Shown here: in pieces, positions 26,849-38,018 of the stretch | Numbering within the stretch: position 1 is the first letter of the stretch | Layout: the number at the start of each line of letters is the position of its first letter | Source of the DNA: Sinomonas gamaensis | GTDB taxonomy: Bacteria > Actinomycetota > Actinomycetes > Actinomycetales > Micrococcaceae | Assembly (NCBI RefSeq): GCF_005876955.1 | Contig: NZ_SSCL01000005.1 | Coordinates: forward strand, 62,001-126,000 | Reading direction: 5' to 3' | Length of the DNA stretch: 64,000 bases | The notes under the pieces: generated by a model | Told to the model about the DNA's origin: nothing | Seen by the model: the letters and a program-made list of their open reading frames with translations, nothing else | Databases searched by the model: none | Translations under genes and position numbers: made by a program

Positions 26849-26854
26849 TAGGAT
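26849..26854 (+). promoter_or_regulatory. Likely -10 of the vanZ-like gene (leaderless)
   Basis: TAGGAT sits seven bases before ATG 26862 and overlaps the alternative ATG at 26853, which favours the downstream start. The 10-mer CCTAGGATGG recurs at 27292-27301 before the DUF2505 gene. Confidence 0.45.
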
Positions 26855-26861
26855 GGACCCG

Positions 26862-27296
26862 ATGACCGAGATCCCCGTACCCCGGACCCCCGGGCCGGTC
26901 GTGCGCGTGCTCGGGGCGCTCTACCTCGCGTTCATCGCAGGGGTCGTGTTCTGGCCCACCCCGGTGGACCGGCCGGCGTCGAAGACCATTGCCCAGATCT
27001 TCGTGTGGCTCCACCGACACGGCGTTCCGAACTGGATCGGGTACTCCTTGTTCGAATGGCTCTCGAACGTCGCGTTCTTCGTGCCCTTCGGCGTCCTTGC
27101 GGTGCTCGTGACCCGGCGGGTGCTGTGGTCGGTCGCCCTCGGATGCGGGATTTCGACGGCGATCGAGCTCACCCAATGGCTGGTCCTCCCGGAGCGCACC
27201 GGGTCAGTCCTGGATGTCCTCGCAAACACGAGCGGGACGCTCGTTGGCGCGGCGATCGCAGCCCTGTGGCTCCGGAGGCGTCGCGAGGGCACCTAG
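26862..27296 (+). CDS. VanZ family membrane protein
   Basis: A 144-residue VanZ-like protein with four predicted membrane spans: VLGALYLAFIAGVVFWPTPV, LSNVAFFVPFGVLAVLV, VLWSVALGCGISTAIELTQWLVL and LVGAAIAALW. Family residues are visible: the N of WLSNVAFFVPFG, the ELTQ of helix 3 and the RTGSVLDVLANTSGTLVGA loop before the last helix. VanZ-like proteins are widespread in actinobacteria, and outside the teicoplanin resistance cluster their role is unknown. A start at 26862 is chosen from the promoter position; an ATG at 26853 would add three residues. A promoter-like 10-mer overlaps its stop codon and serves the next gene. Confidence 0.85.
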   Translation: MTEIPVPRTPGPVVRVLGALYLAFIAGVVFWPTPVDRPASKTIAQIFVWLHRHGVPNWIGYSLFEWLSNVAFFVPFGVLAVLVTRRVLWSVALGCGISTAIELTQWLVLPERTGSVLDVLANTSGTLVGAAIAALWLRRRREGT

Positions 27297-27301
27297 GATG
27301 G
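27292..27301 (+). promoter_or_regulatory. Likely -10 region of the DUF2505 gene
   Basis: CCTAGGATGG contains TAGGAT at 27294-27299. It is identical to the box before the vanZ-like gene and overlaps the vanZ stop. About 57 nt separate it from the next ATG, which has a GGAAGGA ribosome site. Confidence 0.4.
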
Positions 27302-27356
27302 TCCACGGCGCTCATCCCCGCCGAGCGCCTGAGCCCAGACAGATTGGAAGGACTCC

Positions 27357-27860
27357 ATGGCCCTCGAAGCCACCACTACCCTGAACCACCCGGTCAACCA
27401 GGTTGCCGCAGTGTTCGCCGACGAGGCGTTCCAGCGCCACGTGAGCGAGCTCGTTGGCGGCAAGCTCGAATCGTTCACCGTCGACGGCGACACCGCGAGC
27501 GCCTTCACGGCCACGATCGTCCGGCAGGTCCCCACCGGCCGCCTCCCCGAGCTCGCGAAGAAGTTCGTCGGCGAGCACCTGACCGTCACCCAGGTCGAGA
27601 AGTGGACCGCGCCGGACGCCGACGGCTCGCGGCACTCCGACATCTCGGTCAAGGTCGCCGGCGCCCCCGTGGACGTCACGGCCGTCCAGCGGCTCATCGC
27701 CGAAGGGGCCGGCACGCGCCTCGAGCTCTCGGGCACCGTCTCGAGCTCCATCCCGCTGCTCGGCGGGAAGATCGCCGACGCGGCTGAGCCGTTCGTCGGC
27801 AAGGCCCTCAACATCGAGGCCACCCAGGCCGAGGCCTGGCTCGCGGGCGAGATCCACTGA
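27357..27860 (+). CDS. DUF2505 family protein (START-like fold)
   Basis: A 167-residue cytoplasmic protein of DUF2505, an actinobacterial family with a SRPBCC/START-like ligand-binding fold. Typical segments are LNHPVNQVAAVFADEAFQRHVSELVGG, FTATIVRQVPTGRLPELAKKFVGEHLTVTQVEKW, LSGTVSSSIPLLGGKIADAAEPFVGKAL and the terminal EAWLAGEI. A GGAAGGA site lies seven bases before the ATG. The downstream SCO4848-like gene starts within the stop (TGATG), and this pair is conserved in actinobacteria as far as I recall. The ligand and role are unknown. Confidence 0.85.
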   Translation: MALEATTTLNHPVNQVAAVFADEAFQRHVSELVGGKLESFTVDGDTASAFTATIVRQVPTGRLPELAKKFVGEHLTVTQVEKWTAPDADGSRHSDISVKVAGAPVDVTAVQRLIAEGAGTRLELSGTVSSSIPLLGGKIADAAEPFVGKALNIEATQAEAWLAGEIH

Positions 27861-28081
27861 TGCAGCTGCCCGCCGCCCTCTCGTGGCTCCTCATCGTCGC
27901 CGGCGTCTGGAGCATTGTGGTGTGGCCGCAGTTCCTGCGCCGCGTCATGAAGGATCCCCGCGCGCGTGACGAGTCCGGGCGGCCAACGCGTTTCCTCTCG
28001 GTGCACATCTTCCTCGTGGCCATCTCGGTGACGCTCGGCGTCGCCGTGGCGGTCGTCGGTGTGAGGACCCTGTTCGCCTAG
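27860..28081 (+). CDS. SCO4848-family small membrane protein
   Basis: A 73-residue membrane protein with two spans, LSWLLIVAGVWSIVVWPQFLRRV and LSVHIFLVAISVTLGVAVAVVGVRTLF, joined by a charged loop KDPRARDESGRPTRF. The layout and the W-x-x-F, GRPT and HxxL positions match the SCO4848 family of actinobacteria. Its ATG shares the A of the DUF2505 stop (TGATG), so translation is coupled. A long perfect hairpin follows 32 nt after the stop. Function unknown. Confidence 0.8.
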   Translation: MQLPAALSWLLIVAGVWSIVVWPQFLRRVMKDPRARDESGRPTRFLSVHIFLVAISVTLGVAVAVVGVRTLFA

Positions 28082-28113
28082 GACATCCGTCACCTGAGGA
28101 GCTTGCTCATCGA

Positions 28114-28163
28114 CTGCTCCGTAACTGTCGTTGTGAGGGCTCAGAACGACAGTTACGGAGCAG
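28114..28163. terminator. Perfect 19-bp hairpin between SCO4848-like gene and nhaA
   Basis: CTGCTCCGTAACTGTCGTT (28114-28132) is exactly complementary to 28145-28163, with a 12-nt loop. It is only moderately GC-rich compared with its surroundings and has no T run, so it could be a terminator or a dispersed palindrome. Confidence 0.7.
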
Positions 28164-28244
28164 CGGATCGCTAGACTTGAAGAACTGGTGTGCCGGGAAG
28201 TCTGGTCGGCGTGTTCCTTCGACGTCGACAGCACCAGGAGCCTC

Positions 28245-29525
28245 ATGGTCTTCCCCACGCCACCATCCGCCGAATACCGCCGCATCAGCGAGATCCTCCG
28301 CAAGGAGACGGTCGGCGGCGCCCTCCTTCTCCTCGCGACGGTCGTAGCCCTCGTGTGGGCGAACTCGCCCTGGTCCCCGTCGTATGACTCGCTGCGCGAC
28401 CTCCGCGTGGGCTACGCGCCCTGGCATCTCGACCTCACGCTGGGCGAGTGGGCCGCCGACGGCCTGCTGGCGATCTTCTTCTTCGTGGCCGGCCTCGAGC
28501 TCAAGCGCGAGTTCGTTGCAGGCGATCTCCGCCGCCCCGCCACCGCCGTCGTCCCCGTTGTCGCCGCATGCGGCGGCGTCGTCCTGCCGGCGATCCTGTT
28601 CACCGCGGTCAACCTGACCAGCGGAGGCGATGCCCTCCGCGGCTGGGCGATTCCGACGGCGACCGACATCGCCTTCGCCCTCGCCGTCCTCGCCGTCATC
28701 AGCACCCACCTGCCGGCCGCGCTTCGCACGTTCCTCCTCACCCTCGCCGTGGTGGACGACCTGCTCGCGATCGCCATCATCGCCGTCTTCTACTCCAGCG
28801 GGGTGCATCTTCCGTTCCTCGCGCTCGCCCTCGTCCCGCTCGCCCTGTTCATCTGGCTCGTCCAACGCCGCGTCCGCGCGTGGTACCTCCTCCTCCCGTT
28901 GGCCGCGGCCACGTGGGTCCTCATGCATTCCTCGGGGATCCACGCGACGGTGGCGGGCGTTCTGCTGGGCTTCGCCGTGCCCGTGCTCCGGAGCGAGAAG
29001 GCGGGCGGCCCCGAGGCAGGGCCCGGGCTCGCCGAGCACTTGGAGCATCGTTTCCGTCCCCTGTCGGCGGGCGTTGCCGTACCCGTGTTCGCGTTTTTCT
29101 CGGCGGGGGTAGGAGTCGGGGGCTGGGACGGGATTCGAGGCGCGCTCGCCGATCCGGTCGCCGTCGGCATCGTGGTGGCGCTCGTCGTCGGCAAGACGGT
29201 GGGAGTCTTCGGTGCCACGTGGCTGGTGACGAAGTCCCGGCATGCAGGTCTCGATCCTTCCCTGGCGTGGATCGATGTGCTCGGCCTCGCGCTCCTCGCG
29301 GGCGTCGGCTTCACCGTCTCGCTGCTCCTGGCCGAACTCGGATTCGGTGCGGGTTCAGTGCACGACGACCACGCGAAAGTCGCCATCCTCGCAGGTTCGG
29401 TCATCGCGGCAGTTCTGGCCGCCGTCGTCCTCCGCTCGCGGAACCGCCACTATCGGAAGGCGTCCGCCGAGGAGGAGGCTAGAGCGGCGGGAAGAATTCC
29501 GCCGCGAGGGTCTCCCGCAGAATAG
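28245..29525 (+). CDS. nhaA: Na+/H+ antiporter NhaA
   Basis: A 426-residue NhaA antiporter that exports sodium in exchange for protons across the cytoplasmic membrane for pH and salt homeostasis. Characteristic segments are [61 protein letters not shown], the ion-binding Asp pair in [28 protein letters not shown] and [14 protein letters not shown] at 28245 has AGGAG six bases upstream; longer in-frame starts would add a non-family N-terminus. Its 3' end overlaps, on the opposite strand, a small cysteine-rich gene by 47 bp. Confidence 0.93.
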
Positions 29526-29709
29526 GGCACGGCCAAGGCTGGCCGCACTTGCAGCACGGCTGCCCCACGTATTCGCCGCAGGGCCGATGGGCATCGACGA
29601 GCGGCGCCCAAGTGTCCGCCTCGACCTTCTGCTGCGCCGACCCGCGCTGCTGGACCGCCCGCAGCCGCTCCACGATCTGCTGGTAGAGGGGCTCGGCGCG
29701 ATCCTGCAT
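29479..29709 (-). CDS. Small cysteine-rich (zinc-ribbon-like) protein
   Basis: A 76-residue protein with a helical N-terminal half ([16 protein letters not shown]) and a cysteine-rich C-terminal half: [32 protein letters not shown]. The H/C positions could bind one zinc. Similar short C-x7-CCKCGxxWPC proteins occur in actinobacteria and their phages, in my recollection. A -10, TAATCT, lies six bases upstream of the ATG on the minus strand (29716-29721), consistent with a leaderless mRNA. It overlaps the end of nhaA antisense. No function is assigned. Confidence 0.6.
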
Positions 29710-29766
29710 TGGGTTAGATTAGCCCCTTTGCTCTCGCCTGACAGGCAGCACTCGTCGCGGGCAGCA

Positions 29767-29797
29767 GAACGGGTCGCGCAACCCGCGCGACCCGTTC
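29767..29797 (-). terminator. Terminator of the first sortase/surface-protein module
   Basis: A perfect 13-bp stem (GAACGGGTCGCGC with its complement) and a 5-nt loop AACCC lies 14 nt after the stop of the surface protein on the minus strand. Confidence 0.8.
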
Positions 29798-29810
29798 CAG
29801 AGGGCAACTG

Positions 29811-30569
29811 CTATGCGTGGCGTCCACGACGCGGGCGTGCCGCCTTGGCCCCGACGAGGGACAGGAGCAGGAGCAGTCCTGACGCGAAGAGGGACGTGGA
29901 GACGGTCGAGTCGGCCGCAGGAGCACCAACTCCGGTCTGCGCCTGGATGGTCACCTCGCCGGCCTGCCCGGCACCAGCTCCGGCACCCGCTCCCACAGCA
30001 GCACCGACGCCTCCCGCTGCGACCACGGCGCCCGATGCTGCGGGCGAGGTCGACCCACCGACTCCCGGGACCACCGGAGCGGTAGTGCTCTGCGTGGCGG
30101 TGGGCGTCGGAGTCTTCGTCTCCGTCTTCGTCGGCGTCGGAGTCGGCGTCTTCGTCTCAGTCTTGGTGGGCGTAGGCGTCGGGGTCTTCGTCGGCTTTGG
30201 AGTGGGGCTCGGCTTCGGAACCTTGCAGCCGTTGTCCCAGATGGCCTTGCCAGACGCAGTCCAGTTCAGTCCCGGGAACGAGATGGTCTGGCCCTTGCCA
30301 TTCACGTAGGTGAACGCAGGGATGATGTCCCGCTGGTCCTGGTGCTCCCCGTGGGCCTCTGCGATCGAGGCCTTGTCGACGGTGATGACGACGAACGGAT
30401 TCGTCTCGGAACCCGTGGCGTGGCAGATCGTCACCTTGTGCGAGGTGTCGCCGGACGGCGGGCTGGCGAGCGCCGGACTGGTGGCAACGCCGGCGGCCAT
30501 GAGCCCGAGGGACCCGGCGAGGAGCAGCGAGCTCACTCGGTTCTTCTTGATCGTGGAAATGAGCGGCAT
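29811..30569 (-). CDS. Secreted Thr/Pro-rich surface protein with AQTG-type sorting-like tail (module 1)
   Basis: A 252-residue exported protein. Residues 1-35 are a signal peptide (KKNRVSSLLLAGSLGLMAAGVATSPALA). A compact domain with two cysteines follows (KVTICHATGSETNP to WDNGC, about 45-125). A stalk of TPTPTPTKTETK repeats (about 127-165) and an Ala/Gly-rich stretch come next. The tail carries IQAQTGVGAPAADS, a hydrophobic segment TSLFASGLLLLLSLVGAKA and the positive end RPRRGRHA. This is the layout of a sortase substrate with QAQTG in place of LPxTG. ATG at 30569 has AAGGAGG eight bases upstream. The paralogue at 32437 shares N-terminus, ICH-TGS domain and tail. The preceding gene encodes a sortase, its likely partner. 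Confidence 0.8.
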   Translation of the reverse strand: MPLISTIKKNRVSSLLLAGSLGLMAAGVATSPALASPPSGDTSHKVTICHATGSETNPFVVITVDKASIAEAHGEHQDQRDIIPAFTYVNGKGQTISFPGLNWTASGKAIWDNGCKVPKPSPTPKPTKTPTPTPTKTETKTPTPTPTKTETKTPTPTATQSTTAPVVPGVGGSTSPAASGAVVAAGGVGAAVGAGAGAGAGQAGEVTIQAQTGVGAPAADSTVSTSLFASGLLLLLSLVGAKAARPRRGRHA

Positions 30570-30626
30570 AGCGACCGCCTCCTTTTTCACTGAGCGACAT
30601 TGTTGAAGAGACCAGGGGTGGCATTT

Positions 30627-31352
30627 TCAGGTGCACTGTCCGCATCGGAAGGTGAGGAGGACGATGTCGGCGTCGGGATTCTCCACGCTGCAGGAGAAGA
30701 CGACGACGAGGCAGGGGTCGTTGGGAAAGGTGAAGGCTTTGGACTTATCGGTGATCCTCCGATCTTCGAGGGTGCAGGGAACGGCTGTGCCGCTGGCATC
30801 GGTCAGGGTCGCCGGCTGCCCGGCGGACCAACCCGCGTAGCTGAGCCTGTTGAACGGGAACGTGCTGTCGTTGCAGAGCGGCACCTGCACATGGCAGGTG
30901 TGGGCGGCGAGGACCACGGGTCGCAGGGCCGCCGATTGGCCCGTGCCTTCAAGCCAGTGGCCTACCGGATCGAAGTTGTTCGCATCCAAGGGCGGGTCGA
31001 CGGTCTGGCCCGGCGTCCAGGCCATCGGCACAACGTCCACCGCAAGGCCCGCCGCCGGCCACGCGAAGGCCTTCGGCGGGAGGGCGAGCGGAGGCGGGCT
31101 GGGCGGCGCCTCAGTGGCGGCGATGGCGGACGACGGCGGCGCGGTCACCTGCGGCGGCGAGGAGACGGCCGACGGCGGCGAGCTCGCGAGCTGCTGGGCG
31201 GCGCTCAGCCGGGCCTGGTCACGGGCGCTGGCATCGACCTGATGGACGACTGCCACGAGGGCGAGGGCGAGCGCGAGTACGAGAGGGAGCAGCCTGAGCC
31301 ACCCCCAGTGGATGCGTCCCCGTCTCCGCCGGCGCACGCCGTCCCCCGTCAT
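30627..31352 (-). CDS. Class E/F-type sortase, cysteine-rich variant (module 1)
   Basis: A 241-residue membrane-anchored sortase-like transpeptidase that would join the neighbouring surface protein to the cell wall. The N-terminal anchor is LRLLPLVLALALALVAVVHQV, followed by a Pro/Ser-rich linker. The sortase barrel spans about 95-241: FAWPAAGLAVDVVPMAWTPG, NFDPVGHWLEGTGQSAALRPVVLAAHTCH with the catalytic His, GWSAGQPATLTDASG, and CLVVVFSC...TFRCGQCT. I take Cys of FSC and Arg of TFRC as the catalytic Cys and Arg, with an unusually short loop between. The fold carries seven cysteines, all conserved in the paralogue at 33405, and ends at once after GQCT. ATG at 31352 is preceded by GCGAGG; a TTG eight codons earlier is less likely. 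Confidence 0.77.
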   Translation of the reverse strand: MTGDGVRRRRRGRIHWGWLRLLPLVLALALALVAVVHQVDASARDQARLSAAQQLASSPPSAVSSPPQVTAPPSSAIAATEAPPSPPPLALPPKAFAWPAAGLAVDVVPMAWTPGQTVDPPLDANNFDPVGHWLEGTGQSAALRPVVLAAHTCHVQVPLCNDSTFPFNRLSYAGWSAGQPATLTDASGTAVPCTLEDRRITDKSKAFTFPNDPCLVVVFSCSVENPDADIVLLTFRCGQCT

Positions 31353-31476
31353 CCTCGCTTTCGCGCGCGGTCTCAACTGCTGGAACGCGCGAGCTTTGTG
31401 TCAACAGCGGGTTCAGTTCAGCACTGGTGTGAAAGCGCGAACTAGCACCAGAGAATGTGCAGTTCGGGATGTCGTC

Positions 31477-32349
31477 TCAGCGAATTCCTCTTTTTCCGGA
31501 GGACTTCTTTGGGTGGGAAAACTGCCGGTTGGCGGCCTGTTCCAGCGTCAGCCCGTCGCCGTTGTCCAGCAGGGAGACGAAGAGCGCCAGCGCCGCCGTG
31601 CCCAAGACGGACTCCCTCCGTTCGTGGTCCAGCAGGGGTTCGTCCACGCCGGCAAGGAGACGCACCCCGAGGCCCTCCGAGACCGACTGCAGGATGACGT
31701 TGAGCTGCCACGCGGAGACCCCCGGGCGGAGCGCAAGGTCGAAGGAACCGGCGATCTGCTCGTAGAGCTCGAACCAGGATGCGGTCAGGGAAGAGTACAT
31801 CTGCTTGATGGACCGCGAGACCCCAGGGTCCGCGGCGGCCGAGGCAATGGTCAGCAGCTGCAGGCGATAGGCCGGCAGTTCGAGCACGAGCTTTGCTCCC
31901 TCATAGGCAACGCGGTGCACGGCGGTGGCGAAATCAGTCCCGGCCGAGAGCAGCTCCGTCGACCACTCCGCCAGGGCTCGGCGCATGCTCGCGTGGCGGG
32001 CGAAGAGGGCGTACGCGATGAAGTCCTCGAGGAAGTCCTGATGGCCGGCCCAACGGTCGCGGAACTTCGCCTCCGTGGGAACGAGCTCGGGGTAGTCCTC
32101 CCTCGCTCGGCTGAGGACCCGAGGTCGCGAGAGGTAGGCGAGCGTCGGCGGAACAGACTCGGCAGGGTCACCCCCGCCCAGCGAGAACACGTCCTCGGTG
32201 AGGGCGAGACCCGAGTTCAGGAAGGCCCGGGTCAGCTCGGAATTGGCGAGACGTGCCCGGTTCTTCGCCTTGATGCGGTTGAGCTTGGTGACGGTCGCGG
32301 AAAGGTCCTCGTCCTCGATTCCCGGGACGTCAGACTCGGGGCTGGGCAT
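31477..32349 (-). CDS. Putative TetR-like regulator between the two sortase modules
   Basis: A 290-residue soluble, mainly helical protein. The N-terminal portion (DLSATVTKLNRIKAKNRARLANSELTRAFLNSGLALTEDVF, later LAYLSRPRVLSRAREDYPELVPTEAKFRDRW) could contain a helix-turn-helix, and the rest resembles a TetR-type helical ligand-binding domain (AVHRVAYEGAKLVLELPAYRLQLLTIASAAA, WQLNVILQSVSEGLGVRLLAGVDEPL). The assignment is weak: the first third does not show a textbook TetR HTH. ATG at 32349 has GAGGAGG eight bases upstream. It sits between a terminator and the module 1 sortase gene, 124 bp away, so it may head that unit. Control of the two surface modules is an inference from position. Confidence 0.5.
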   Translation of the reverse strand: MPSPESDVPGIEDEDLSATVTKLNRIKAKNRARLANSELTRAFLNSGLALTEDVFSLGGGDPAESVPPTLAYLSRPRVLSRAREDYPELVPTEAKFRDRWAGHQDFLEDFIAYALFARHASMRRALAEWSTELLSAGTDFATAVHRVAYEGAKLVLELPAYRLQLLTIASAAADPGVSRSIKQMYSSLTASWFELYEQIAGSFDLALRPGVSAWQLNVILQSVSEGLGVRLLAGVDEPLLDHERRESVLGTAALALFVSLLDNGDGLTLEQAANRQFSHPKKSSGKRGIR

Positions 32350-32371
32350 ACGGCGAACCTCCTCAAACATC

Positions 32372-32414
32372 CGTGCCGTCGTCCCAACGCGGTTGGCGTC
32401 GGGACGACGGCACG
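32372..32414 (-). terminator. Terminator of the second sortase/surface-protein module
   Basis: A perfect 14-bp stem (CGTGCCGTCGTCCC at 32372-32385 with 32401-32414) encloses a 15-nt loop, 22 nt downstream of the surface-protein stop on the minus strand. Confidence 0.8.
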
Positions 32415-32436
32415 CCCCCCAATGGGTCTTCTCTGC

Positions 32437-33372
32437 TTACAGATGACGCCCGCGCCGCCCCTTGGAGAACCGCGGGACCAGGGCGCCGAGGAGCATGAGC
32501 ACTCCCGATGCGAAGAAGGCGTTCGAGGCCGTGGAGTCAGCCGCTGGCGCGGAGGCGGCCGTCTGAGCGCGGAGGCTCACCTCGCCGCCCTGGGCCACTG
32601 CCTGGCCCGCCGCCGCCGGCTGCACAACCGCCTGCTCGCCCCCGACTGGCGCCCCAGAAACGCCAGCCGAGGGACTCGCCGGCGTCGTCGCCGTCGACGA
32701 CGTCACGCTCGTCGAAGGCGCAGGGGCCGACGACGGGCTGTTGCTCACCACCGGAGGCAGAGTCTTCTGCGTCGAGGGAGCGGGAGTCGTGGGCTCAACC
32801 ACCACGGGGTCCGACGTCGGCGTCGAGGGCACAGGTGACGCCGACGTCGGGGCTGTTGTGGGCTCGGAGGTTTGGGTCGGCGGGGTGGTTACCGTCGTCA
32901 CAGTAGGCTCCGTCGGCACAATCGTGGGGACGATGGTGGGAGTCACCGTCGGGATCACTGTGGGAGTCACCGTCGGGATCACTGTGGGAGTCACCGTGGG
33001 GGTGGGAGTGTTGACCGGGGCCACGCAGCCGTTCGCGTAGAGCGCCTGGCCCGCCGCATCCCAGTTCTGCCCGGCTACTTCCTGCGTCTGGCCCTGTGAA
33101 TCGGTGTACGCGAAGGGCGGGAACACGTCATTTGTGTAGAGCGGCCGCGAGTTCACGATCGACGACTTGTTGGTCAAGACAGATACGTACTTGTTCCCCT
33201 GCGACCCAGTCAGGTGGCAGATCGGGATCTGCGGGGAGTCCGCCGCGCCGGGAGCGGCCATGGCAGGGCTCGTGACAACCCCGGCCACGAGGAGCGCTCC
33301 CGCGCCGGCCGCCAACAGGCCGCCGCTGTAATTCTTGGATTGAGGGTTCTTCTTAAGTGCGGGAATCAGCAT
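32437..33372 (-). CDS. Secreted Thr/Pro-rich surface protein with AQTA-type sorting-like tail (module 2)
   Basis: A 311-residue exported protein, paralogous to the one at 29811. The signal peptide ends near MAAPGAA (residues 1-42). A domain with two cysteines (IPICHLTGSQGNK to LYANGC) is followed by a long Thr/Pro/Val/Ser stalk (about 120-245). That stalk starts with VTPTVIPT repeats encoded by a 24-bp tandem repeat at 32936-32997. The tail has LRAQTAASAPAADS, a hydrophobic helix NAFFASGVLMLLGALVP and RFSKGRRGRHL. The sorting-like motif reads RAQTA here against QAQTG in module 1. AAAGGAGG stands 11 bases before the ATG. The sortase gene lies 32 bp upstream, and a hairpin follows the stop. Confidence 0.8.
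   Translation of the reverse strand: MLIPALKKNPQSKNYSGGLLAAGAGALLVAGVVTSPAMAAPGAADSPQIPICHLTGSQGNKYVSVLTNKSSIVNSRPLYTNDVFPPFAYTDSQGQTQEVAGQNWDAAGQALYANGCVAPVNTPTPTVTPTVIPTVTPTVIPTVTPTIVPTIVPTEPTVTTVTTPPTQTSEPTTAPTSASPVPSTPTSDPVVVEPTTPAPSTQKTLPPVVSNSPSSAPAPSTSVTSSTATTPASPSAGVSGAPVGGEQAVVQPAAAGQAVAQGGEVSLRAQTAASAPAADSTASNAFFASGVLMLLGALVPRFSKGRRGRHL
32936..32997. repeat. 24-bp tandem repeat in the surface-protein stalk
   Basis: Two exact 24-bp units (32936-32959, 32960-32983) and a partial third encode VTPTVIPT repeats. Unit number could vary by slippage and change stalk length. Confidence 0.9.
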
Positions 33373-33404
33373 CTTCCTGCCCGCCTCCTTTCAGTCTGGG
33401 ATGG

Positions 33405-34175
33405 TCACGTGCATTGCCCGCAGCGGAATGTCACGAGGACAATCTGGCCGTCGGGATCGTCGTAATTGCAGGAGAAGGCAACCACGTCGCAGGGGTTGTT
33501 CTCGAAGGAAAATGCCTTCGACTTGTCGACGACTTTCCGGTCCACGAGCGAACAATTCACGACCTGTCCCTTCCCATCGGTCAGGGAGGCTGGCTGCCCC
33601 ACTGCCCAGCCCTGATAGCTGAGTCGATTGAAGGGAAAGGTCGCATCGGTGCAGAGCGGCACACCCTGATGGCAGGTGTGCCCGGCGAGCACCACCGGCC
33701 GGACGCTCGATGACTGCCCCGTACCGACGAGCCAGTGGCCCACCGGGTCGAAGCCTTGGGCATCCAGCGGAGGGTCGACGGGCGCCGCCGGGCTCCAGTC
33801 CATCGGAACGACGGCGGCCGTGAGTCCCGCCGCCGGCCAGGAGAACGTCCGAGGCGGCAGGGCCATCTGCGCCAGTTGGAGGGCAGGCTGCGATGGGACG
33901 GCAGGCTCCGACGGGGCGGGAGCTGCCGACCGGACCGGGGCCGGCGGAGTAGCCGTGCCCGGCACTGCCGTGGGAGTCGCCGTGCCAGATGAGGAGAGTG
34001 GGGGCTCCGGAACCGAGGCCGCCAGCTGCTGCGCTGCCTCGGCCCGGAGCTGCTGGCGCGCATCGTCCCCGAGAAGATGCAAGCCCGCGAAGACGGCGAG
34101 CGCGGAGGAAAGGCCGAGGGCCAGAATTCTGACCCACCGCCATTTCTTCACCCGCGCATTTCGCCGCCGCATCAC
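33405..34175 (-). CDS. Class E/F-type sortase, cysteine-rich variant (module 2)
   Basis: A 256-residue sortase-like protein, paralogue of the one at 30627. The anchor is WVRILALGLSSALAVFAGLHLL, then a Pro/Ala/Ser linker. The barrel shows FSWPAAGLTAAVVPMDWSP, FDPVGHWLVGTGQSSSVRPVVLAGHTCH (catalytic His), GWAVGQPASLTDGKG, NNPCDVVAFSC and VLVTFRCGQCT. As in its paralogue, seven cysteines are at matching positions, and the usual 25-40 residues after the catalytic Cys are reduced to a short loop and a final strand. The start is the GTG at 34175 or the adjacent ATG at 34172, after CGGGGGTC. It is transcribed divergently from the glycosyltransferase genes across a 646-bp control region that holds a dyad shared with the polysaccharide operon. 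Confidence 0.77.
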   Translation of the reverse strand: MMRRRNARVKKWRWVRILALGLSSALAVFAGLHLLGDDARQQLRAEAAQQLAASVPEPPLSSSGTATPTAVPGTATPPAPVRSAAPAPSEPAVPSQPALQLAQMALPPRTFSWPAAGLTAAVVPMDWSPAAPVDPPLDAQGFDPVGHWLVGTGQSSSVRPVVLAGHTCHQGVPLCTDATFPFNRLSYQGWAVGQPASLTDGKGQVVNCSLVDRKVVDKSKAFSFENNPCDVVAFSCNYDDPDGQIVLVTFRCGQCT

Positions 34176-34325
34176 GACCCCCGAAATCGTTGTCCCCAGC
34201 TTTGACGGAGTGGTATTCGCCGGAAGGCCCCCGCACCTCCGGAATTTCCCAGCACGCCGGCTGGGCCGACGCGTCCGGCTGAATACCGAACTCCATGTAT
34301 TCCAGTACAGCGGGCGGAATCCCGG

Positions 34326-34348
34326 GGGTCACCAGTAGTCGGTACCCG
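34326..34348. promoter_or_regulatory. Shared dyad element, copy 1
   Basis: GGGTCACC, a 7-nt spacer AGTAGTC and GGTACCCG form an imperfect dyad. The whole 23 nt is identical at 59180-59202 upstream of the polysaccharide operon. GAGTACGC follows 56 bp after its GGTCACC here and 57 bp after it in the other copy. It lies about 150 bp upstream of the module 2 sortase gene. Confidence 0.7.
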
Positions 34349-34821
34349 GCTTCCAGAGGGGCCCTGAAAGGCCACCTCTCAGGAGTACGCGGAATTGGAG
34401 AGAGGGGTACGCAGGTGGACTACGCAGACGGTCCGGGGGTGAGCGCAGATACTTGGAAATCGGCGTCTCGGCTCGAGCGGGAAGCCGCCTTCACGGAGCG
34501 CACCGCACTCACGCCCCACTAGGGCCGTGTGGCCCGTCTTGCTCGGTTCTTCCATGATTTTTCACAGTTTTCCGGCCCTCGCGCATCCCCGTAGTGAGTA
34601 CGCAGGCACGCTCCGGCCCCCTCCGCCGACTACTTGCGGCCCTCGCGGACCCGTACTCGGGGGCTCGCAGCTCAAAACGTTGGCATCACCCGATTCTGGG
34701 GCGGGGAGGACCCGTTTCGTCCCGACCTCCTTGTCCGCCCTCTCCCCCGGTCCCGACCTTAGAAGTCAGGAGCAGCCGCGTGGCAGCTGCGCACCAGACG
34801 GTGACGGGGTTGGAGGGGTGC
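34349..34821. other. Non-coding remainder of the 646-bp control region (34176-34821)
   Basis: No gene is seen in the 646 bp between the divergent sortase and acyltransferase genes. Besides the dyad at 34326 the region holds repeated TACGC(A/G)G motifs (GAGTACGCG at 34383, GGTACGCAGG near 34407, CTACGCAG near 34420, GAGTACGCAGG near 34597), a short GGGCC-GTGT-GGCCC hairpin at 34522-34535, and an AT-richer stretch 34550-34572. A promoter for the acyltransferase operon must lie here but no clear -35/-10 pair is evident. Confidence 0.5.
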
Positions 34822-35427
34822 ATGGTCCGGAACCATCAGACCGCGGAAATCGAAGAAGGAGCCGAGGTAGGCGAGGGAACCGTGGTGTGGCAGCACGCGC
34901 ATATCCGGGCGGGAGCCCAGGTTGGCCAGGAGTGCATCATCGGCCGCGGCGTCTACGTGGGACCCGGTGTTCGCATCGGGAATCGGTGCAAGATCCAGAA
35001 CTACGCGCTCGTCTACGAGCCTGCAGTCGTGGAAGACGGCGCCTTCATCGGTCCCGCCGTGGTCTTCACGAACGACCTGAACCCCAGGGCCGTCAATCCG
35101 GACGGCACGCTGAAGAGCTCCGACGATTGGCTCGCCGTAGGCGTGAGCGTGGGTACCGGGGCGTCGATCGGCGCCCGCGCGGTCTGCGTGGCGCCCGTCC
35201 GCATCGGTGCGTGGGCCACGGTGGCGGCGGGCGCCGTCGTCGTCAAGGACGTCCCCGACTACGCGCTCATGGCGGGAGTGCCCGCCCGGCAGATCGGCTG
35301 GGTCGGCGAAGCCGGCCACCGCCTCAAGGAGGACGTCCGCAACGGCAGCGGCGCCACGTGGCTGTGCCCGGTAACCGGGCGGCGCTACGTAGAGACCGAT
35401 GGACGCCTGTGGAGGGCCGATTCGTGA
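34822..35427 (+). CDS. Hexapeptide-repeat acyltransferase, WbpD-like
   Basis: A 201-residue left-handed beta-helix acyltransferase. Hexapeptide repeats fill most of it: AEIEEGAEVGEGTVVWQHAHIRAGAQVGQECIIGRGVYVGPGVRIGNRCKIQNYALVY, VGTGASIGARAVCVAPVRIGAWATVAAGAVVVKDVPDYALMAGVPARQIGWV. The insertion PAVVFTNDLNPRAVNPDGTL and the C-terminal WLCPVTGRRYVE match WbpD/WlbB, which N-acetylate UDP-2-acetamido-3-amino-2,3-dideoxy-glucuronate. A partner oxidoreductase and aminotransferase (WbpB- and WbpE-like) are encoded in the convergent operon (56350-57540 and 52313-53440). GGAGGGG stands just before the ATG. The stop overlaps the next GTG (GTGA). An amino-sugar route is inferred. Confidence 0.82.
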   Translation: MVRNHQTAEIEEGAEVGEGTVVWQHAHIRAGAQVGQECIIGRGVYVGPGVRIGNRCKIQNYALVYEPAVVEDGAFIGPAVVFTNDLNPRAVNPDGTLKSSDDWLAVGVSVGTGASIGARAVCVAPVRIGAWATVAAGAVVVKDVPDYALMAGVPARQIGWVGEAGHRLKEDVRNGSGATWLCPVTGRRYVETDGRLWRADS

Positions 35428-38018
35428 GCAACCGGGTGACGCTCGGCGGCACTGAGGTGACACTGCTGGACACCGGCGATTCGGTCGACGCGATCCTCGG
35501 GGGGTGCCGGGAGCGCGAGCGGCCGCTCGGCGTGGTCTCGGCCAACCTCGATCACGTGTACCATTTCGGCACCGGCGGGAGGTGGCAGCGTTCGCTCGGG
35601 TCGTCGGACGTCGACTGGCTCACGCTCCTGGATGGCGCTCCACTCGCGGCGGAGGCGGAGCGCCTGACGGGCCGGCCTTGGCCCCGGCTGGCCGGCAGCG
35701 ATCTCATCGGACCCATCCTGGACCGCTGCGAGGCCGAGGGGCTGACGGTCGGCTTCCTGGGTGGGAGCCCCGACGCCCAAGTCCTCCTGCGCGGACGCCT
35801 CGCGGAGAGACGGCCCCGCCTGCGCGTCTCCGGGTTCTGGGCCCCGAGCCGGGGCGAGCTCGAAGATCCGGCGATGTCCGCCGTCGTCGCCCATTCGATC
35901 GCCGCGGCCGGGACCGACGTGCTCGTCGTTGGTCTCGGCAAGCCGCGGCAGGAGCTGTGGATCGCAGAGCATGGGCCGGCAACCGGGGCGCACGTCCTGC
36001 TCGCGTTCGGCGCCGTCGTCGATTTCCTCGCAGAGCGCATCAAGCGGGCCCCTGTCTGGGTTGCCGAGCACGGACTCGAGTGGGCCTGGCGGCTCGCGCT
36101 CGAGCCCGCTCGCCTCTCGGAGCGCTACCTGGTCCAGGGCCCCGAGGCCTACGTGCGGATGCGGCGTCACAGCACTGATTCCGTGGCCAGCGGCCCAGTA
36201 GCGCTCTCAGCCGAAGCCCGCCGCTCCGCCGCCGTCGCCTCGGCCCGGTTCGCGCACCCAGCCGGCCAAGGCCTCTTCGCCCCCTCGGGCGAGCCTGCCG
36301 ACGTCGCGGTGCTCATCCCGACCTACAACAGCGCCGACTCTCTGCCCCAGCTCATCGATTCCCTGCGCAGCGCCGCGCGGAGTCTCCGGCTGCGGGTCGT
36401 GGTCGCGGACAACTCCCCCGACCGCCTCACGCTGGACGCCATCGCACACTGCAAGGACGTCATCGCCTTCCGCACTGGCGGAAACCTGGGCTACGCCGGT
36501 GCCATCAATGCGGCGACCGCCGCGGCCGGCGAGGCCGAGGCGTTCCTCGTGCTCAACCCCGATACCGAAGTGCTCCCCGGCGCCGTCGACGCCCTCCTTG
36601 CCCGCTTGCGGGCCGCCGGCGCCGGGGCCGTCGTCCCCCTTATCCTCGAGGACGACGGCGCCCGCTATCCCTCGCTCCGACGCGAGCCCACCGCCATGCG
36701 AGCCTGGGGCGACGCACTGTTCGGTGCGCACCTCCCGCGGCGCCCCCAGTGGAGCGCCGAGACGGACTACGACGCCGAGAGCTACGCCCACGCCCACACC
36801 GTGGACTGGGCGACGGGCGCCGCGCTCATGGTCTCCGCCGACGCCGCCCGCGTGGTGGGGCCCTGGGACGAGCGCTTCTTCATGTACTCCGAGGAGACGG
36901 ACTACTTCCGGTCGCTGCGGCAGCACGGGTTCGAGATCTGGTTCGAGCCCGCGGCGCGCGTGATGCACTCCGGAGGCGGCTCGGGAACCTCGAGCGCCCT
37001 CGCCGCGCTCATGTCAGTCAACAAGATCCGCTACATGCGCAAGCACCACCCGGGTGCCGCGGCGGCGTTCGCTACCGCCGCCGTCGTCACCCGGGAGGTG
37101 CTTCGCGCGTACGACGGCGATCATCGCCGTACGCTTGCACTCCTCCTCCGCCCCGGGCGGTGGGAGGCACTCCCCCGGCCCACTGCCCATCCTTCGGCGC
37201 AGGAGCACCCGGAGGGGTGCGTGATCATTCCTGCCCACAACGAGGAGGGCGTGATCGGCCGCACCCTCGAAGGGCTGCGCCCGGCGCTCGAGAGCGGGCG
37301 GGTTGAAGTCATCGTCGCGTGCAATGCGTGCACCGACCGGACCGCAGAGATCGCGGCCCACTACTTGGGGGTGCGGGTCCTTGACCTGCCGGAGCCCGGG
37401 AAGGCCCGCGCCCTCAACGCCGCTGACGCCGTCGCGACCCGGTGGCCCCGCGTCTATCTCGACGCGGACATCGAGGTTCCGCCCGCGGCGCTCGCCGGGA
37501 TCCTCGCCGAGCTGTCGCGGGGCGAATACCTGGCCGGGCGGCCCGACTTCCGGTACGACACGTCCGGGTGCGACCCGTTCGTGGCCGCCTACTACCGGGC
37601 GCGCGTGCGGATTCCCTCGAATCGCACCGCGCTCTGGGGCGCCGGGTGCTACGCCATGACGGAGGAGGGGCACCGGCTTATGGGCGCCTTCCCCGAAGGC
37701 GCCGCCGACGACTACTTCGTGGACACCGTGTTCGATCCGGGGCACAAGGTGTTCCTCGACGGCGAGCCGGTGGTGGTGCGACCCCCACGGACCACGTCGT
37801 CCCTCGTCTCCACCCTCCATCGCGTGTACCGCGCCCCCGCCTCCACAGGAGGGGGCACCCCGATGCGGACGTTCCAGGGCCTCGTGGCCTCCGTGCGCGG
37901 ACCGCTCTCCGCCCTCGACGCCGCGGTCTACGCGACGTTCGCCCTGATGGGGCGGCGGCAGTCGCTCCCGTCCACCGGCTCCCAGCTGTGGGAGCGCGAC
38001 GAGAGCAGCCGGCGATGA
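35424..38018 (+). CDS. Triple-domain glycosyltransferase: WecG/TagA/CpsF (GT26) + two GT2 domains
   Basis: An 864-residue fusion of three glycosyltransferase domains. Residues about 1-240 are a GT26 WecG/TagA/CpsF domain (GVVSANLDHVYHF, GSDLIGPILDRCEAEGLTVGFLGGSP, LVVGLGKPRQELWIAEHG, FGAVVDFLAERIKRAPVW). Residues about 290-555 are a GT2 domain of rhamnosyltransferase type (VAVLIPTYNSADSL, VVVADNSPDRLT, LNPDTEVLPGAV, EETDYFRSLRQHGF). Residues about 597-840 are a second GT2 domain (CVIIPAHNEEGVIG, VIVACNACTDRTAEIA, LDADIEVPPAAL, GAGCYAMTEEGHRL). No stop or frame break separates them. GTG at 35424 overlaps the acyltransferase stop and has GGAGGG upstream. It probably adds several sugars of one repeat unit in succession on the cytoplasmic membrane. 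Confidence 0.88.
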   Translation: MSNRVTLGGTEVTLLDTGDSVDAILGGCRERERPLGVVSANLDHVYHFGTGGRWQRSLGSSDVDWLTLLDGAPLAAEAERLTGRPWPRLAGSDLIGPILDRCEAEGLTVGFLGGSPDAQVLLRGRLAERRPRLRVSGFWAPSRGELEDPAMSAVVAHSIAAAGTDVLVVGLGKPRQELWIAEHGPATGAHVLLAFGAVVDFLAERIKRAPVWVAEHGLEWAWRLALEPARLSERYLVQGPEAYVRMRRHSTDSVASGPVALSAEARRSAAVASARFAHPAGQGLFAPSGEPADVAVLIPTYNSADSLPQLIDSLRSAARSLRLRVVVADNSPDRLTLDAIAHCKDVIAFRTGGNLGYAGAINAATAAAGEAEAFLVLNPDTEVLPGAVDALLARLRAAGAGAVVPLILEDDGARYPSLRREPTAMRAWGDALFGAHLPRRPQWSAETDYDAESYAHAHTVDWATGAALMVSADAARVVGPWDERFFMYSEETDYFRSLRQHGFEIWFEPAARVMHSGGGSGTSSALAALMSVNKIRYMRKHHPGAAAAFATAAVVTREVLRAYDGDHRRTLALLLRPGRWEALPRPTAHPSAQEHPEGCVIIPAHNEEGVIGRTLEGLRPALESGRVEVIVACNACTDRTAEIAAHYLGVRVLDLPEPGKARALNAADAVATRWPRVYLDADIEVPPAALAGILAELSRGEYLAGRPDFRYDTSGCDPFVAAYYRARVRIPSNRTALWGAGCYAMTEEGHRLMGAFPEGAADDYFVDTVFDPGHKVFLDGEPVVVRPPRTTSSLVSTLHRVYRAPASTGGGTPMRTFQGLVASVRGPLSALDAAVYATFALMGRRQSLPSTGSQLWERDESSRR

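Follow-up and report, generated by a model that had tools for sequence, protein, structure and literature searches.

What is the function of two sortase-like genes in Sinomonas gamaensis, each standing beside one gene for a surface protein whose C-terminal tail is not of the LPxTG type? The window, by which we mean the whole analysed stretch of 64,000 nucleotides from a 35-contig genome of 4.32 Mb, holds at 29767-34175 on the minus strand two such sortase and surface-protein gene pairs, each with a hairpin at its end. We conclude, at a probability of about 0.82, that each module is a self-contained wall-anchoring system consisting of a diverged class-F-like sortase and its single dedicated surface protein, with the extra cysteines of the sortase most likely engaged in structural disulfides. 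The membrane-bound sortase would recognise the C-terminal motif [LIMVA]-x-A-[QEKD]-T-[AGS] in its one surface protein, the product of the next gene downstream, cleave after the Thr via a thioester on Cys236 with the assistance of His166 (residue numbering follows sortase A, P0002), and join the cleaved protein to a peptidoglycan precursor as the presumed acceptor. The expected product is a stalked surface protein that would display a two-cysteine ICHxTGS domain on a Thr/Pro stalk.

Each sortase is encoded beside one tail-bearing protein

Sortase A (33405..34175, on the minus strand like every feature of the region) comprises an N-terminal membrane anchor, a Pro/Ser-rich linker and a sortase core that contains, besides His166, Lys218 and Cys236, another six cysteines. 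Surface protein A (32437..33372) has a signal peptide, an ICHLTGS two-cysteine domain, a Thr/Pro stalk and the sorting tail VSLRAQTAASAPAADS, followed by a hydrophobic helix and GRRGRH. The second module repeats this arrangement with sortase B (30627..31376), a paralogue 58% identical to sortase A whose open reading frame (ORF) starts with TTG and whose true start may be the in-frame ATG at 31352, and with surface protein B (29811..30590, the likely start being the ATG at 30569), in which a signal peptide, an ICHATGS two-cysteine domain and a Thr/Pro stalk precede the tail VTIQAQTGVGAPAADS, a hydrophobic helix and RRGRH. The two sortases have seven cysteines in common (C168, C175, C208, C229, C236, C252 and C255). 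Both surface proteins begin with a signal-peptide-like stretch, as judged by eye, carry the ICH[AL]TGS motif with exactly two cysteines per protein, and continue through the Thr/Pro-rich stalk to the tails IQAQTGVGAPAADS and LRAQTAASAPAADS, the hydrophobic stretch and RRGRH. A third module exists in the same genome, with the sortase at G000:C23:296943-297677 and a surface protein that lacks the ICH domain and ends in the same kind of C-terminal tail. The two modules, the two-cysteine domain and the stalk were all as described in the initial annotation of this DNA, which had not included the third module or the regulator-like gene at 31477-32370 (see below).

We searched 15 Sinomonas genomes for both partners. 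The sortase was found in 10 of them, at 14 full loci, and the tail profile gave 14 strong matches (E < 1e-19), all within the same 10 genomes and each in the gene that immediately follows a sortase locus on that strand. The five genomes without the sortase contained no tail at E < 0.05; matches at E 0.06 (G004) and 0.08 (G010) were not counted. Because these very tails went into the tail profile, the informative part of this result is the absence of unlinked tails. The one-to-one correspondence of 14 sortase loci and 14 tails upholds the earlier proposal of a dedicated enzyme-substrate pair, and within the genus the tail did not occur without the enzyme. Together with the third module, the occurrence of the sortase in 10 of 15 genomes, each of the 14 loci beside a tail protein, amounts to more than chance. 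The sortase core is under purifying selection, with ratios of nonsynonymous to synonymous substitution rates (dN/dS) of 0.05-0.20 over eight pairs; dS is at least 1.0 in five of these pairs, and those estimates are therefore rough. L008 is a 15th sortase locus beyond the 14. Two weak matches of the Sinomonas search, L020 and L021, showed no sortase features on reading and were rejected as unrelated proteins.

The tail itself, with its helix and RRGRH end, was correctly described at the outset, but the proposed AQT[GA] core was too narrow. The Sinomonas tails follow [LIMVA]xA[QEKD]T[AGS] and then D[YSA] at 14/14 loci, the partner of the L017 sortase has an AADT variant and L008 an AET variant, and the putative sorting motif, as read from these tails, should rather be given as [hydrophobic]-x-A-[QEKD]-T-[AGS]. 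The third-module surface proteins L004 and L018 lack the ICH domain, possess CGC or a similar cysteine pair within a Gly-rich region, and retain the tail with an extra HRAH end. We count this change of cargo under a constant tail in favour of the pairing between tail and sortase.

The named relatives of the sortase in public genomes (n=4) are all from Sinomonas. Outside the genus, sampled genomes from the family (197), the order (198) and the phylum (246) gave no seven-cysteine sortase, and these absences are provisional, since the profile searches scored about 10-20 candidates per genome and rarer members may exist outside Sinomonas. The same samples yielded the NVQ-type and F7-type sortases described below, with one cysteine each in those read. 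The weak outside matches L131 and L132 are without sortase features and represent unrelated proteins, and viral contigs gave no relatives.

Profile bridges and a predicted fold place the enzymes on the class F side

A profile search bridged the Sinomonas sortases to L028 (E 1e-8) and L029 (E 1e-7) of the same family, whose group we call the NVQ type. The L028/L029 profile found matches in 35 of the 197 family genomes at E up to 1e-5, Sinomonas-type and weak partial matches included. Its matches numbered 42, of which 22 were used in the alignment; not used were the near-copies L046 and L052, three matches of the Sinomonas type, a remnant on contig C26, matches that lacked a locus or were weaker and partial, and L057, for which no ORF was picked. 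The Pfam Sortase model PF04203 matches 15/22 NVQ-type cores at E up to 1 (best 3.6e-14). In hhalign comparisons, Sinomonas and the NVQ type scored 97.3% (E 2.4e-11), the NVQ type and class F 97.7%, and Sinomonas and class F 89.5% (E 2e-6, over residues 106-219 only), against 0.05% for an unrelated control.

The full-length structure model was poor, with a predicted local distance difference test (pLDDT) score of 50.6, so we modelled the core alone. The template-free core model from six sequences has eight strands (predicted template modelling score, pTM, 0.66; pLDDT 64, the other four models 45-58). In a Foldseek search of the PDB with this model, all 50 listed matches (of 626) were sortases, the best at E 7.2e-6, and the TM-score was 0.5-0.6 among the matches listed. 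In a tree of 67 cores (12 Sinomonas rows and 55 relatives of class F, NVQ type and F7), the Sinomonas rows group as a single clade (100/100) whose stem measures 4.62 changes per column; exactly where this clade attaches near the NVQ type has weak support (80/82) and comes with a long-branch warning. These 67 rows leave out the near-copies L007, L010 and L016, with seven cysteines each, and second copies of loci already used, and the 30 class F rows are the best-scoring loci and not a random draw.

The profile bridges and the predicted fold thus indicate that the Sinomonas enzymes are sortases from the class F side, and we read them as a branch that has diverged strongly from the class-F-like sortases of their order. 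The sortase fold had been anticipated correctly, and the label "class E/F-like" holds for class F but not for class E, as none of 13 members matched a class E profile and none of the 14 loci had an LAxTG tail, and we reject the class E assignment. The single place in the genome of the window found with PF04203 is a separate class E sortase, L001 (NF033747, E 3e-54). Judging from these sequences, the standard family models that we tried fail to recognise the Sinomonas sortases owing to their divergence.

Four sortase groups with four types of sorting signal

Tail criteria were uniform for the four groups: a motif, then a hydrophobic helix, then a basic end. The NVQ-type tails carry G[LMIFYV][NA][VILA][QD][TS][AG] at 21/22 loci, the match at L056 being a false positive. 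For class F (NF033748) of the order, we took the 30 best-scoring loci; tails reading G[GA][VAM]xTG occur at 20 of them, and among the other 10 are three truncated at contig ends and one with the tail GGADAG. The F7 group (L094-L096), from another family of the order, has LRSNTG tails at 3/3 loci. Neither LPxT[GA] nor LAxTG tails occurred at the loci of any of the four groups. There were no cross-matches between the four sortase groups and the four tail types, in agreement with the earlier claim that signal and enzyme vary together; as the patterns were written after seeing the tails, the value of this result lies in the absence of cross-matches. Gene order also differs between Sinomonas and the relatives. 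The substrate gene precedes the sortase in 21/21 NVQ-type and 20/20 class F loci with a tail, and follows it in 14/14 Sinomonas loci.

A few observations on these groups may be added. The partner proteins of the NVQ-type group (L028-L056, 22 loci) are helical and, by eye, coiled-coil-like, with a tail mostly of the G-x-N-[VIA]-Q-T-[AG] type. L094 of the F7 group has two partner genes, one on each side of the sortase. The genome of the window also contains a broken NVQ-type sortase remnant with in-frame TGA and TAG (G000:C26:1598-1912; L087, L100) on a 4.9-kb contig, and the ORF overlapping it is presumably transposase-like.

Six extra cysteines as probable disulfides

Seven cysteines per core are present in 11/12 Sinomonas rows, as had been noticed for the two copies in the window, whereas L017 has five and 55/55 relatives have one. 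C168 and C175 mark the two ends of an insertion that immediately follows the catalytic His and measures 7 residues relative to the NVQ type and 5-6 relative to class F. C229 precedes strand 7, C252 lies at the end and C255 after the end of strand 8, and these positions in an antiparallel hairpin would bring C229 and C252/C255 together. The exceptional sortase of L017 (G008:C3:302935-303675) ends early at TFRCG, with a stop where others have Gln254; C229 is replaced by His, H169 and C255 are lost, C252 is kept, and the sortase-tail pair is retained. The joint loss of C229 and C255 with C252 kept favours a C229-C255 pair and leaves C208-C252. Most likely, the six extra cysteines form three structural disulfides, with C168-C175 closing the insertion beside the catalytic His, C229-C255, and C208-C252, a pair that we take from elimination and from the strand order assumed for sortases. 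Location outside the membrane favours structural disulfides.

The cysteines might instead bind a metal or, through the C-terminal CGQC, form a redox switch controlling the active-site Cys. The CxxC pair of C252 and C255 and the grouping of C168, H169 and C175 beside the catalytic His, all in 11/12 rows, would fit such a role, but L017 retains its pair without C229, H169 and C255, and the six extra cysteines are even in number with two at the ends of an insertion. The initial annotation had offered both disulfide stabilisation and metal binding; the former is the likelier, and no test favours the latter. We regard metal binding or redox control as unlikely, though slightly less so than the other alternatives.

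Anchoring of single copies or polymerisation

A sortase could also link copies of its surface protein together in the manner of a pilus. One dedicated sortase beside one substrate is found in pilin-sortase clusters too, and the separate class E sortase of the genome could take over housekeeping anchoring. We saw, however, no second tail-bearing gene in the modules, and the 12 surface proteins scanned have no Pfam pilin domain (the pilin lysine motif was not searched for). Polymerisation of this kind is therefore an improbable alternative to the anchoring of single copies by a dedicated sortase. The ICHxTGS domain had no match in the PDB or in Pfam, the latter scan taking in 12 surface proteins.

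Catalytic residues and the loss at strand 8

His166, Lys218 and Cys236 are present in 67/67 aligned sortase rows, and the Ser/Thr preceding the catalytic Cys, a residue to which a part in binding the oxyanion is ascribed in a class A sortase (PMC9520033), is kept in 12/12 Sinomonas rows. The start of strand 8, the canonical position of the catalytic Arg, is occupied by Ile/Val in 12/12 Sinomonas rows and by Asn in 55/55 relatives; the position was assigned by alignment, and a shift by one residue is possible, which would place Gln, Ala, Asp or Glu there, also not conserved. In the class F rows the Lys is invariant and the strand-8 Asn is found in 30/30, and of these two invariants Sinomonas has the Lys in 12/12 and the Asn in 0/12. 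Lys or Arg stands just before the strand-8 Asn in 21/22 NVQ-type rows. When the class E sortase L001 is anchored on the strand, an Arg falls at the start of strand 8; the loops did not align by themselves. Arg251 of TFRCGQC, initially proposed as the catalytic Arg, is rejected in this role, since it lies 6-7 residues past the canonical position, where strand 8 ends, and is replaced with His in L006. Nor is the segment after the catalytic Cys peculiar in being shortened to one strand, as had been thought, because the relatives also have a single strand there.

Such a loss raises the question of whether the protein is an inactive or scaffold sortase-like protein, which without the strand-8 Arg or Asn would merely hold or position its partner. 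According to PMC9520033, Arg at the start of strand 8 of class A sortases belongs to a triad described as ubiquitous and contacts the P4 and P3 carbonyls, and the R216A mutation abolished activity in one such enzyme. The uniform Ile/Val of the Sinomonas rows at a site where all 55 relatives have Asn, and the stem of 4.62 changes per column, could be read in the same way. The same paper, however, reports an engineered sortase with Arg replaced by Ser that stayed active on a different motif, and the loss in Sinomonas is therefore compatible with activity, though this is not proof of it. Every one of the 12 Sinomonas rows keeps the His, the Cys, Lys218 and the Ser/Thr that precedes the Cys, dN/dS is low as given above, and motif, helix and basic end are retained in all 14 partner tails. 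Taken together, we consider an inactive or scaffold protein quite unlikely.

A more far-reaching proposal, which we hold tentatively and at slightly less than even odds, is that the Sinomonas sortases are active without the third catalytic residue. Class-F-like sortases would have replaced Arg by Asn, and the Sinomonas branch would have lost the Asn too, compensating by three disulfides and by the loop that cysteines close next to the catalytic His, and would have evolved a private signal together with its one substrate. More generally, each class-F-like sortase would serve a single substrate, and the signals of these pairs, of the form [VA/S]xT[GAS], would be orthogonal.

Several points weigh against the modules as dedicated anchoring systems. 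Pfam and NCBIfam sortase models matched 0/13 Sinomonas sortases (PF04203 none at E up to 10, NF033748 for class F and NF033747 for class E none), and a search of the PDB by sequence with the sortase and its profile gave nothing significant. The confidence of the core model is modest, and its root-mean-square deviation from PDB sortases is mostly 5-6 Å. The tail profile and the motif patterns derive from the same tails that they describe, and the pairing counts include close relatives such as L015/L016. C229 and C255 were lost together in one event only. With Ile/Val at the canonical Arg position, the activity of the Sinomonas sortases is not certain. That the proteins are not sortases at all and resemble them by composition or chance, as the lack of a direct sequence match in Pfam, NCBIfam or the PDB might suggest, is hardly credible in view of the profile bridge with its control, the 50 listed PDB matches of the template-free model, all sortases, and the catalytic residues in 67/67 rows.

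Gene order and neighbourhood

The order of transcription is sortase A, surface protein A, hairpin, regulator-like gene, sortase B, surface protein B and hairpin. The hairpin ending module A (32372..32414) lies directly 3' of the surface protein A gene and has 19-nt arms that are 95% complementary; the one ending module B (29767..29797), 3' of the surface protein B gene, has perfect 13-nt arms, and it is this hairpin that stands at the start coordinate given in the initial annotation. A promoter and terminator scan gave no signal above shuffled sequences, and the module A hairpin (32372-32414) was not called as an intrinsic terminator. The five window proteins had only weak matches of low-complexity type in Pfam and NCBIfam.

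Between modules A and B lies the gene for the regulator-like protein P0005 (31477..32370, 297 aa), possibly of TetR type. Two of five members of this group touch TetR_C_6 weakly (best E 0.02), and the matches of a profile search against the PDB were insignificant. Homologues adjoin a sortase module at 4/12 other loci examined (L008, L080, L082 and L083), and the gene may control the expression of the module. The location of the module is conserved across several species: in the window (26853-38018) and at L005, L006, L007, L084 and L085, it lies between what we take to be a predicted Na+/H+ antiporter gene and glycosyltransferase-like genes. A second conserved module site is common to L008, L081 and L082.

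Implications and comparison with known sortase systems

The Sinomonas enzyme is a cysteine-rich sortase that has diverged from class F and has a signal of its own. Two features take this case beyond the routine: class-F-like sortases follow a rule of pairing, and the third catalytic residue has been lost in nature. PMC13251363 describes the physiological roles of the class F enzymes as unknown, and sortase substrates were sought there by LPXTG, NPXTG, SPXTG, PPXTG, LPXTA and LAXTG motifs. The pairing supplies class-F-like enzymes with explicit candidates for both the signal and the partner protein. Our searches of an open-access library returned nothing relevant on Sinomonas or Micrococcaceae sortases, on GG[VA]xTG signals or on Asn in place of Arg in class F, and the papers there that mention NVQTG together with a sortase concern C. 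difficile. By alignment, Arg in class E, Asn in class F and Ile/Val in Sinomonas constitute a natural series that lends itself to testing what the sortase Arg does, which is a matter of debate. Signals that exclude one another would be of use as orthogonal tags for protein ligation. The Sinomonas enzymes are also a sortase family missed by two widely used model libraries.

Among known and newly delineated groups, the NVQ type is nearest by profile, and resembles the Sinomonas system in core layout, in the His, Lys and Cys, in the adjacent single substrate and in a signal of the QT[AG] type. It differs by one cysteine per core, the strand-8 Asn, the G-[LMIFYV]-[NA]-[VILA]-[QD]-[TS]-[AG] signal, the upstream substrate gene and a cargo that appears coiled-coil-like by eye. 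Class F (NF033748) has the same Lys, His and Cys positions and an adjacent substrate at 20 of the 30 best-scoring loci; in contrast, 0/13 Sinomonas sortases match its model, its neighbouring proteins carry GG[VAM]xTG, and it has the strand-8 Asn and no extra cysteines. The class E enzyme SrtE1, with its LAXTG signal (PMC5148588), is likewise actinobacterial and shares Ala at P3 (xAxT[AGS] against LAXTG), but the Sinomonas tails lack Leu at P4, their sortases match no class E model, and L001 is a separate class E sortase in the genome. Class B, with NPQTN, shares an x-x-Q-T type of signal, and NVQTG was among the peptides compared for C. difficile SrtB in PMC5118464; we saw no profile relation to class B, and the resemblance is in the signal alone.

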